Assembly (NCBI GenBank): GCA_030427255.1
Contig: JAUHWY010000003.1
Coordinates: 62,001-126,000, forward strand
Direction: 5' to 3'
Source: Bacteroidia bacterium
Lineage (GTDB): Bacteria; Bacteroidota; Bacteroidia; CAIKAF01
Length of the DNA stretch: 64,000 bases
Shown here: positions 47,601 to 63,438 of the stretch, piece by piece
How positions within the stretch are numbered: position 1 is the stretch's first letter
Layout of the letters: each line of letters opens with the position of its first letter
Program-made: the position numbers and the translations under genes
Notes under the pieces: model-generated
Database searches by the model: none
What the model was told of the DNA's origin: nothing
The model's input: the letters and a program-made list of their open reading frames with translations, nothing else

Positions 47601-47690
47601 GAGACCGTTGATGCGTTGCTATTCTAGTGGCGATCCTGCCCTGACGCTTCGGTCAGGGAATTTGTCTTGCAAACACAAGGCCTCAGCGGT
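47601..47690. repeat. Short fold-back element related to the 59.8-kb insertion
   Basis: GAGACCGTTGATGCGTTGCTATTCT at the left matches the reverse complement of the right end of the element at 59765-59957 at most positions. The centre CCCTGACGCTTCGGTCAGGG (47639-47658) is shared with that element, and the right end (ACACAAGGCCTCAGCGGT) is roughly complementary to the left end. I see no certain target duplication. Confidence 0.65.
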
Positions 47691-47739
47691 ATCCGAAAAG
47701 CGCAATCTCCCTTACAATTTGAACAAGAAACCTCCATTG

Positions 47740-59177: not shown

Positions 59178-59627
59178 TCAGCCGGTAGTTTTTCTAGGCC
59201 AGCTTGCCGCTAACTTTTCTCGATACTTATTTTCTACCTCCTGGGCAAATGCCGCTTTGTCGTTTCTTAAAATCTCCATAGCCGGTCCATCTACAAGACT
59301 TGGATGTGCAGCCCTAAGGTTTTTGTCGCTCCATGAAGCCAGCTCTACCAGAATAGGCGTTAAGGCCAATCCCTTTTCGGTCAACAGGTAATAATTGGTC
59401 TTTCGATTGTCGGGGCGTTGGGTTTTTGCCACAATTCCCAATTCCTCCAGAAACTTGAGTTTGGTGGAAAGGATGTTGGTGGCAATCGCCTCCTCGCTTT
59501 CGGTAAAGTCTTTGAAGGTCTCCTTGCCTTCAATGAGCATTTGCTTTACAATCACCAATATCCACTTATCGCCCAGAACATCCAAGGCCGAAGTAAAAGG
59601 GCAGTCACATCTAAAATCTAAAGGCAT
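59178..59627 (-). CDS. HxlR family transcriptional regulator
   Basis: The protein has 149 residues. It starts with the typical DCPFTSALDVLGDKWILVIV, includes the winged helix (ATNILSTKLKFLEELGIVAK, YYLLTEKGLALTPILVELAS) and ends with a short helical tail. HxlR/MarR-type proteins are DNA-binding regulators often controlling the divergent gene. The divergent neighbour is the broken SnoaL-like lipoprotein gene. Its promoter overlaps that of its neighbour. Confidence 0.88.
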   Translation of the reverse strand: MPLDFRCDCPFTSALDVLGDKWILVIVKQMLIEGKETFKDFTESEEAIATNILSTKLKFLEELGIVAKTQRPDNRKTNYYLLTEKGLALTPILVELASWSDKNLRAAHPSLVDGPAMEILRNDKAAFAQEVENKYREKLAASWPRKTTG

Positions 59628-59680
59628 GGCTTAAACTTCCCTCCTTTTGGAAGGCAATACAAAATTAATATTCTATATTA

Positions 59681-59711
59681 CTTGCAAATCGAAAGCTATT
59701 TAGTAGTTTTG
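59681..59711 (+). promoter_or_regulatory. Promoter of the broken SnoaL-like lipoprotein gene
   Basis: CTTG at 59681-59684, 19 bases, then TAGTTTTG at 59704-59711, a full -7 match. It lies 31 bases before ATG 59743 and so supports that ATG as the original start. On the opposite strand TTTG (59747-59750), 18 bases and TACTTTTG (59721-59728) may drive the HxlR gene. Confidence 0.6.
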
Positions 59712-59742
59712 CTTGCGAAACAAAAGTAATAATAAACGAGCG

Positions 59743-60844
59743 ATGGCAAAAACAAGAATAAAGACGGTTTACGCGTTGTGTTTTCAAGCTTTTTGTCCTG
59801 ACCGCAGCGTCAGGGGCGAATTAAGGCACGGTCAAATCGAAAGTCCGGAGTTTACTAATTGTAAATGAGGAGCCCTGACGCTTCGGTCAGGATAAAAAAC
59901 TTGAGATTTGGCCGTAACGCAAAGTCGCCGCCAGAATAGCAGCGCGTCAACAGTCTCGAATAAAGATAGCCATTTTACTGGTACTATCAGGAATGCTCGC
60001 TTCCTGTGGCGTACACAAAAACAAATCCAAAAGCGAGCAAAATCCATCAAACCCCTCAACAATGAGCAACAAAGCAATCGTAGGCACCTTCTTGGGCGCC
60101 GTAATGAAGCAAGACACGGCCACCATGCGCCAAGTAGCAAACCCCGACTACATCCAACACAATCCCTTTGTGCCCACCGGCCTGGAGCCTTTTATCGGCC
60201 TATTGCCCGTACTTAAAGAGCACGGCACCTATGCCGAAAACATCCGTATGTTTCAAGACGGCGACTATGTGTTTATGCACAACATCTGGAAAAACGCACA
60301 ACCCTTTGGCGCAGAAGAAATGGTGGCCTTCGACATCATCCGCGTAGACGAACACGGAAAAGTAGCCGAGCACTGGGATGCCATGACGCCCTTGGTAACG
60401 GAAACGGCCAGCGGCAGAACACAAACCGACGGCCCCAGAAGCAGCAGCGACCTAGACAAAACCGAGGCCAACAAAGCCCTGGCGGTATCCCTGGTCGAGG
60501 ATGTGTTGATGGGCAAAAACCCCAGCAAAATCGCCGACTACATCAGCACCGAAACCTACCACCAGCACAACCCACAAATCAAAGACGGGTTGACCGGAAT
60601 TGTGGAAGCGGTAGAGTACCTCACCTCCCTTAACAACATGTTCAAATACACCAAAATCCATAAAGTATTGGGCGAGGGCAACTTTGTGCTCACCGTAAGC
60701 GAAGGCGAATGGAACGGAGGCAAAAAGCAGGTCTTTTACGATTTGTTCCGCATGGAAGCCGGCCAAATCGTAGAGCACTGGGATGTGATTCAAGAAATCC
60801 CCACCGAAGGCTTAGCACACAACAACGGAATGTTTGGATTCTAA
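59743..60844 (+). pseudogene. SnoaL-like (NTF2-fold) lipoprotein gene split by an insertion
   Basis: The intact-looking 3' part (from 59958) encodes two tandem SnoaL/NTF2-like domains (NPDYIQHNPFVPTGLEPFIG, VFMHNIWKNAQPFGAEEMVA; then DYISTETYHQHNPQIKDG, VLTVSEGEWNGGKKQVFYDL). The 5' part is ATG 59743 with codons MAKTRIK. Removing 59757-59958 (202 bases, with one GAATAAAGA copy) restores a continuous lipoprotein signal: MAKTRIK, a hydrophobic run and the LASC lipobox. In the present sequence ATG 59743 ends at a TGA near 59867. A downstream ATG at 59993 or 60062 could still make a non-exported protein. SnoaL-like proteins hold small polyketide- or steroid-like substrates. Confidence 0.75.
59765..59957. 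mobile_element. 193-bp fold-back (MITE-like) insertion with 9-bp target duplication
   Basis: The segment is flanked by identical GAATAAAGA copies at 59756-59764 and 59958-59966. Bases 59781-59815 are an inverted repeat of 59873-59907, with the nested hairpins CCTGACCGCAGCGTCAGG (59797) and CCTGACGCTTCGGTCAGG (59874). No transposase is encoded, so a helper would be needed. The ends are only partly complementary (GACGGTTTACGCG against GACTGTTGACGCG). The right end resembles 47601-47690. Confidence 0.75.
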
Positions 60845-61453: not shown

Positions 61454-62932
61454 TTAATCATTTATCCTATAGCGTGTACTTCGACCAGCTCCTTCCATAA
61501 CAATCAATTCGCCATCTACCCACTTCTTAAGTAACCGCTGAGCGCTTCTTTCAGCTAATTCCGTGTACTCAATAAATTCAGCTTTTGAAACAAGGCTCTT
61601 CTCCCTAAAGATTTCAAAGTAAGCAAGCTCCACGTCACTAAGCTTTTCAATTCCTTTAAACTTAACGACTGATTTAACACCTTGTACTGTCCTAGGAAAA
61701 GTCAAAGTCAAAAAAGGTTCCTCAAAAGTGAACTTTGGGATAGGTAAACCAAAATTCTCTTTCAAAGACTTAAAAGTCTTCATCCCAAATCCTTTCTCCT
61801 CCACATAATCCATTAAACTGAAAGCATAGGTAATGATTGGGTTTCGGCTTAGAGAAGGAGCTTCAAAGGTGTTTAGTTCATCCAACGAAATTGCTGGCAA
61901 TGGTTTGCCTGGACTAGTCACAATTACTTTATTCTCATCAATCTTAATTTCACTCTTGGCACCTTCAATTTCATAATCACGATGCACCAAAGCATTTACA
62001 ATGGCCTCACGCAGAACTTCTATTGGAAAGTCAGGAACGTCCATTCTTTTAAAGGCACTCGTGTCCTTTGATAGGGGCAATACTTTCTTCAGCCATTCTT
62101 CAACTTGGTCAGGAAGTAGGACTAAGGCATCGGAAAAGTCTTTAGGTTCAATTCTTTGGTTGCCATAAGTTACATGGGCTTTTAAAACCGCACTCTTGAA
62201 TTTTGCTCGCGGGTTCTTACCAAAAAGTAAGATTCCAAAACCTGTGGGAACAAACTTTTTCTTTTCCTTATTCCACTCCATGGCTCCAAAATCTGCCAAG
62301 TATTCCAAGAAGGCTTCCTCGGTGGGCTTAAAATCAAGATTAGACTCCTTGATAAACTTCTGTAACGCCTGTTCTGAAAATTTACTGCTATCGTAATTCT
62401 CAATGGGTAACTCAATGGGTGTTCGTAAATCTTCCTCTTCGCTATCTCTTTTTCTTTCTAAAGCTTGTTTTAAAAAGGCTTTGTTTTCGTATTCTATGAT
62501 ATGCTGAAATTCACGATCAAACATTTTTACTTCAACACCATGATTTTCGAGATGTTTGATTCCTTTGCCATCTACAGTTGGGTCCCTGTCTTCAATACCG
62601 ACAAAAACTTTTTTGATTCGCGCATTTGTAGTTCTGCGGCAACATGGAACTTTAGGTGGATTTCTTTGCACACAAGGTTCAAGCGTGGTAAAAAGGGTAC
62701 AACCTTCTAAATTCTCATTAGGCAACTTTCTTTCCAGAAGGGTGTATTCAGCATGGTCTCCTTCTCTTAGTTCCCCACGAAATGCAGTTTCAATTCTACC
62801 ATCAGGAAAAAGCAACACTGCACCCACCTTGGGTGGCACCTTGCCATCAGGTCTCGGCTCGTTGACGCTCCTATTCATTACGTCTATGGCCAGTTGCATG
62901 AGTTCTTTATCGGTGTATTTCTTTTTTGCCAT
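61454..62932 (-). CDS. RibD-like deaminase fused to Schlafen/RecG-like ATP-binding module
   Basis: The protein has 492 residues. Residues ~10-155 form a cytidine-deaminase fold of the RibD kind: His60-Ala-Glu62 in GDHAEYTLLE, TLEPCVQRNPPKVPC with Cys87 and Cys97 as zinc ligands, and DRDPTVDGKGIKHLENHGVE. Residues ~185-300 match the linker region of COG2865-type proteins (GFGILLFGKNPRAKFKSAVL). Residues ~300-410 look like HATPase_c_4 (IEVLREAIVNALVHRDYEIE, VTSPGKPLPAISL). A winged helix ends it (VSKAEFIEYTELAERSAQRL). The usual N-terminal AlbA_2 DNA-binding domain is replaced by the deaminase. The domain call is solid; a defence role is inference. Confidence 0.75.
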   Translation of the reverse strand: MAKKKYTDKELMQLAIDVMNRSVNEPRPDGKVPPKVGAVLLFPDGRIETAFRGELREGDHAEYTLLERKLPNENLEGCTLFTTLEPCVQRNPPKVPCCRRTTNARIKKVFVGIEDRDPTVDGKGIKHLENHGVEVKMFDREFQHIIEYENKAFLKQALERKRDSEEEDLRTPIELPIENYDSSKFSEQALQKFIKESNLDFKPTEEAFLEYLADFGAMEWNKEKKKFVPTGFGILLFGKNPRAKFKSAVLKAHVTYGNQRIEPKDFSDALVLLPDQVEEWLKKVLPLSKDTSAFKRMDVPDFPIEVLREAIVNALVHRDYEIEGAKSEIKIDENKVIVTSPGKPLPAISLDELNTFEAPSLSRNPIITYAFSLMDYVEEKGFGMKTFKSLKENFGLPIPKFTFEEPFLTLTFPRTVQGVKSVVKFKGIEKLSDVELAYFEIFREKSLVSKAEFIEYTELAERSAQRLLKKWVDGELIVMEGAGRSTRYRIND

Positions 62933-63438
62933 AAACTACTTTTTAATCCTCAATCTCCTCACTTGCCTCCTCTGCCTCCTCAAAATATGCAATGGAACTT
63001 AATCTTTTTTGTCGTATTACTTTGTTCTAATTTTCTATTTTCTGTAAAAACGCTTATCGGATTTCGAATGTCAAATTTATTGTTTTTTGGTAATGTCTGA
63101 AAAAATGTGTAGGAGGTTTTCTTATGTAAGCTATTCAAATATAAGAAATTAGATTACTGAGATAGTTGACGCGCACAGTAGATTTAACATCCTTATATAC
63201 AGTTGACTGCACTTCCTTTCTGGGTATTCTGTCAATACTACCAGCCCTCTGCTGAAAATGCCCCTCATTATGGATTCCCCCAATGTTGCGCGGAACCTTT
63301 AAGGTTGAGAACTTTGGGTTTGTTGAATGTTTTCTACGTATTTAGGGTTGAAGATACTTGATTGGCTGATTGGTTGGGGAAATAGGGATGGAGAATTGTT
63401 ATAGAATTGAGGTTGAACGCCATACCCTTTAACTCCGT
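62933..63438. other. Gene-free AT-rich spacer
   Basis: About 500 bases between two minus-strand genes, AT-rich at the left. I see no convincing gene, tRNA or long repeat in either direction. It must hold the promoter of the deaminase fusion gene, but no clean TTTG/TAnnTTTG pair is found. Confidence 0.5.

Follow-up and report, generated by a model that had tools for sequence, protein, structure and literature searches.

The window analysed here, a stretch of 64,000 nucleotides from a Bacteroidia bacterium, contains a lipoprotein gene that is broken after codon 6, and raises the question of what has interrupted it and by which means. The gene (59743..60844, plus strand) encodes SnoaL_2 and SnoaL domains and is intact in its orthologue from a congener, G004. 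In the window, two copies of GAATAAAGA, at 59756 and at 59958, enclose a fold-back element. With this insert, the frame starting at ATG 59743 stops after 41 codons. As the first-pass annotation of this DNA had proposed, joining the flanks over a single GAATAAAGA copy restores a lipoprotein leader, MAKTRIKIAILLVLSGMLASCGV, which continues without a stop across the SnoaL_2/SnoaL domains. The empty site that the same annotation suggested looking for in a relative exists in G004: its orthologue, 85% identical, lacks the insert, and its leader, MTKSRLKVWTSLALSGLLASCAV, has exactly the length of the one inferred here. The first ATG, GTG or TTG start of the downstream frame is ATG 59993, from which the remaining frame is open; as this start lies within the lipobox region, the interrupted gene has, judging from its sequence, probably lost the connection to its export signal. 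No further stop has accumulated in the remainder of its frame, consistent with a recent insertion. The promoter noticed earlier ahead of the ATG, CTTG-N19-TAGTTTTG (59681..59711, plus strand), is indeed promoter-like, and is supported by a similar sequence, TATTTTTGCTTGCGAAACAAAAGTAAT, in G004. To note, an HxlR-type regulator (59178-59627) is divergent from the interrupted gene, and their shared intergenic region (59680-59730) harbors the half-sites TTACTTGCAAA and TTGCGAAACAAAAGTAA, which also stand in G004.

The best overall explanation, which we hold with high confidence, is that a non-coding MITE has inserted into the signal-peptide region of the SnoaL-like lipoprotein gene, and that the core of this MITE is not tied to any single transposase. 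The element is 197 bp long (59761-59957, core reading on the minus strand, as indicated by core-model matches and by the comparison with 73 own-genome copies having paired terminal inverted repeats, TIRs); the fold-back structure described earlier, with 193 bp, is confirmed. It is bounded by a left TIR, AAGACGGTTTACGCGTTG (59761..59778, plus strand; family consensus GAGACYGTTGAYGCGTTG), and by a right TIR, read GAGACTGTTGACGCGCTG on the minus strand (59940..59957). On either side stands the pentanucleotide GAATA (59756..59760 and 59958..59962), assigned as the target duplication from the direct repeat and from the register of the 72 other copies. The left end of the window copy reads AAGAC where the family reads GAGAC, and the AAGA of this mutated end matches the right flank owing to the changed terminal base, hence the apparent 9-bp repeat. 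The description of the element as GC-rich does not hold, its GC content being 49.7% vs 48.2% for the whole window.

The family is not as small as had been supposed, and the suspicion that it is widespread in this genome was justified. In the own genome (G000, 3.22 Mb in 57 contigs, copies being examined in stretches around matches), the element used as a query yields 130 match pieces. The end motif is matched 98 times in forward and 94 times in reverse orientation, as compared to 25 and 16 times for its reversed control. Two facing ends were found at 73 sites, among which the few with many mismatches may be false; the family thus comprises at least about 70 copies. Exact 5-bp duplications flank 23 of the 73 TIR-paired copies (shuffled mean 0.49), and 43 of the 73 when one mismatch is tolerated (shuffled, 3.2). 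At locus L025, two elements stand in tandem, with AATTA common to them three times. Flanking duplications, which the first-pass annotation had expected at other copies as 9-mers, therefore exist as 5-mers. That the mover is a transposase making 9-bp duplications, as the perfect 9-bp direct repeat GAATAAAGA suggests at this one site, is scarcely credible, since 5 bp is the only over-represented length, no exact duplication exceeds 6 bp, none of the 73 copies has an exact 9-bp one, and the extra four bases are part of the left end, which reads AAGAC instead of GAGAC.

The family also has several attributes of MITEs: its members are short (87-327 bp), non-coding and devoid of any long frame, share the TIR GAGACYGTTGAYGCG, have a 5-bp target-site duplication, and are multi-copy and polymorphic between relatives, as the empty site in G004 illustrates. 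The earlier conclusion that such an element has transposed is thus borne out by TIRs, 5-bp duplications, dispersed copies and an empty site. The congener G004 possesses copies of its own (46 and 61 end-motif matches; 38 core-model matches, as compared to 54 in G000), and neither end-motif nor core-model matches were found in the congeners G001, G002, G003 and G005. Genes are avoided, a 120-codon frame being able to span 14 of 62 copy sites vs 44 of 62 points located 350 bp away, with exceptions that include the window copy.

The most common full form of the element is 143 bp long. A consensus derived from 19 copies of this length adopts a single long hairpin fold (-67 kcal/mol), a trunk interspersed with conserved unpaired boxes. 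In the window copy, these are GCCTTA (59822..59827) and GCGTT (59916..59920), both on the minus strand and both recognized by comparison with the 143-nt copies and with the core alignment A1; between them, a pattern scan (G000:C5:121846-121869:-) located the conserved apical hairpin CTCATTTAC-AATTA-GTAAACTCCG (59846..59869, minus strand). The length of the longer copies increases by 26-27 bp at a time, through the addition of hairpin units of the type CCTGAC-N6-GTCAGG at the trunk loops. Two of them, CCTGACCGCAGCGTCAGG (59797..59814) and CCTGACGCTTCGGTCAGG (59874..59891), each part of an inserted unit of ~27 bp, are nested in the window copy and missing from the 143-bp forms. The own genome contains 108 such hairpins (control, none), in places as tandem 27-bp arrays; one copy, at L069:662-788 (G000:C29), harbors 4.7 tandem units TCCTGACCGAAGCGTCAGGTTTTATAA, whose number varies between family copies. 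Template switching, or slippage, at palindromes is the most likely origin of these extra hairpins. Short forms of ~93 bp have the same ends and one nested hairpin, without the core; the unit at 47.6 kb of the window, whose ends had been noticed to resemble those of the element, is such a 93-bp member (47601..47693). The size and number of the nested 18-bp hairpins are reminiscent of REP palindromes, yet a mobilization by a RAYT (Y1) transposase is hardly tenable, as it is the whole element that bears 5-bp target duplications and IS5 ends of the DDE type, with a DDE partner.

A candidate for this partner was found in the congener. The search for a transposase with matching terminal repeats, recommended by the first-pass annotation, failed in the own genome, in which a profile search returned no PF01609 gene, and succeeded in G004. 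The latter encodes exactly one DDE_Tnp_1 (PF01609) protein, scoring above the cut-off of the IS5-family model NF033581, inside a 1,302-bp element with ends GAGACCGTTGACG and GAGACTGTTGACG, whose 13 bp are the same as those of the MITE. A stop shortly precedes the conserved region in the frame of this transposase, and the flanks of the insertion sequence (ACTAG/AAAAT) display no clear 5-bp duplication, suggesting that this copy may be dead. Among plasmid-borne relatives, ISCca7 has the ends GAGACCGTTG, and an IS5 relative from Solidesulfovibrio the ends GAGACCAATGCA with a 5-bp duplication, ATATC. The Porphyromonas IS5-family elements ISPg4 and MITEPgRS share the same TIR type, GAGACTGTTGCA (PMC4596501). 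Having ends in common with the IS of G004, the plasmid relatives and ISPg4/MITEPgRS, the window element is, on sequence grounds, an IS5-type MITE. By this reading, an IS5-type transposase would act in trans on GAGACYGTTGACG ends, leaving 5-bp duplications. A further TIR-like pair in the window, at 63159/63981, was considered as an insertion sequence and attributed to chance, since one of the two ends falls inside coding sequence and the region showed no recognizable transposase. A protein encoded in the window (61454-62932) combines a cytidine-deaminase domain with a RecG-C-terminal-like (HATPase_c_4) domain.

Several known systems resemble this family in part. The autonomous elements of the IS5 NF033581 group (ISCca7, with ends as in ISPg4 and ISPg1) have the GAGACYNTTG ends of the MITE; unlike it, they encode a transposase and lack the core, no model match being found in L271. 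MITEPgRS/MITE464 and BrickBuilt of Porphyromonas gingivalis are multi-copy and possess IS5-type ends (GAGACTGTTGCA / TGCAACGGTCTC and GAGACC...), as in this family; BrickBuilt is intergenic, and these elements have tandem units of constant size inside, 41 and 23 nt (PMC4596501). Compared by description, they differ from this family in that their interiors are reported as confined to Porphyromonas, without a cross-phylum core (PMC4596501). In the parts of the literature covered, no paper describing the element or its core was found.

BOX elements of Streptococcus pneumoniae, to judge from their general description, work alike, combining invariable ends with stem-loop modules whose number inside the element varies, although their sequence, host and ends differ.

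The presence of this core in several phyla under different ends was not anticipated by the first-pass annotation. It takes the form GCGTT..CTCATTTAC-N4-GTAAACTCCG..GCCTT and recurs in Bacteroidota, Pseudomonadota and others, with up to 148 matches per genome. The search pattern CTCATTTACN{2,8}GTAAACTCCG, prompted by a weak match in G012, is present in 11 of 395 genomes of the class (control, 0). Among the matches listed, it also occurs in numerous records of Pseudomonas, Halomonas, Salinicola, Nitrosomonadales, Marinilabilia, Alistipes and others, nearly always within long imperfect hairpins. A first core model yields 148 matches in Marinilabilia, 113 and 62 in two Salinicola, 71 and 56 in two Pseudomonas, and 49 in a Rikenellaceae genome; the core was found in 16 of the 20 genomes checked with a model, most of which had been picked for already having it. 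A second model, trained on 27 sequences that come mostly from Pseudomonadota and exclude this genus, detects the elements of G000 and G004 with E-values down to 1e-10, and even the window copy, interrupted by a nested hairpin, at E 2.3e-4. In alignment A1, the invariance of the apical box is partly a product of the search pattern; the GCGTT and GCCTT boxes lie outside this pattern, in an alignment whose sequences were chosen for similar boxes. The Pseudomonas form of the core, which has no match in phages or in E. coli, is found on Pseudomonas plasmids, including LT599585.1, LT969519.1 and plasmids of the Pseudomonas syringae group, making plasmid carriage a possible route between hosts; the form of the own genome gave no match in the plasmid search. 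The R-families of Pseudomonas fluorescens (R0, R2, R178, R200) are intergenic and some are palindromic with IS-matching ends (PMC2718517); R178 and R200 could be members of the core family.

The stems of the core covary. Inner arms pair with their own partner at a mean of -21.1 kcal/mol, vs -12.0 kcal/mol with the arms of other copies, and outer arms at -23.1 vs -12.3 kcal/mol; the stem covariation score over 48 sequences is 0.606, as compared to 0.179 after shuffling and at most 0.141 when slid. Strong covariation and conserved loops are encountered in functional RNAs, and the repeats might be copies of a structured RNA gene or regulatory RNA in which pairing is selected. We find this very unlikely: the copies bear target duplications and transposon ends, Rfam has no family over the window element at E up to 1, and G.T pairs are not more common than A.C mismatches in the arms (229 vs 225). 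This latter balance holds overall and differs between inner and outer arms, so that it leans towards selection on DNA pairing without settling the matter. The core of the MITE may be retained because of the shape into which it folds, in the DNA more likely than in an RNA. In G008, matches to the Flavo-1 RNA (RF01705) lie near two core hairpins, at L106:1204-1342 and L116:1617-1773.

Outside the genus, the core is associated with quite different ends. It is found with ends CAGGCYGTTGAAAAAC flanked by YTAR, with ends GAGCCTGTTCA flanked by TNA (exact 3-bp duplications in 8 of 17 copies, null 2.8), with ends GGGCATCTCTAAAAAC and 4-bp duplications (5 of 13, null 1.15), and with further end types. 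The closed genome of Salinicola tamaricis illustrates this diversity within a single host. By their ends, 33 of its 36 copies can be sorted into three classes: 15 have GAGGGTGTTTACAAA ends with TNA (11 exact 3-bp duplications), and the other 18 carry ends of two kinds, next to YTA and TAR as predicted from a YTAR target. Cores from different end classes are up to 95% identical. The same genome contains an IS5-type element, broken by a stop, with ends of the GAGGGTGTTTACAAA kind (class K, L252:897-2070), and S. peritrichatus an IS5_3-type element whose ends resemble the second Salinicola kind. The pairing of end class and insertion sequence is close for GAGAC (G004) and K (S. tamaricis), and partial for the others; insertion sequences with class-B ends were not found in G041 and G175. 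The occurrence of one core under such different ends and target duplications indicates that it is decoupled from any single transposase, and it appears to be carried by several different transposition enzymes.

Two histories may account for this. The core might be a small mobile hairpin that inserted repeatedly into unrelated IS5-type MITEs, an idea to which the 93-bp short forms, having ends without core, and the nested CCTGAC hairpins, witnesses to the addition of palindromic units inside the element, both lend some credit. We nevertheless consider it unlikely: in the copies inspected, the core occupies the center of the element and keeps the register of the outer arms, and in Salinicola the similarity between end classes covers the entire inner 96 nt. 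In the reading that we favor, the ends would have been exchanged on one conserved core, the ends being the exchangeable, transposase-specific part, putatively recognized by different IS5-family transposases. It is possible, and we propose it tentatively, that the elements form a cross-phylum superfamily in which a structured DNA core has repeatedly gained different IS5-family ends, with duplications of 5 bp, YTAR, TNA or other 4-bp types, sometimes several per genome, and in which the boxes are kept for a shared, fold-dependent step.

The usual view of MITEs is that each derives by deletion from a single parental insertion sequence. That a core with covarying stems is common to several phyla and found under several unrelated ends implies that a portion of a MITE can persist beyond its transposase and switch to another one. 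As this core is a defined, searchable motif, the reason why bacterial MITEs keep long hairpins becomes a testable question.
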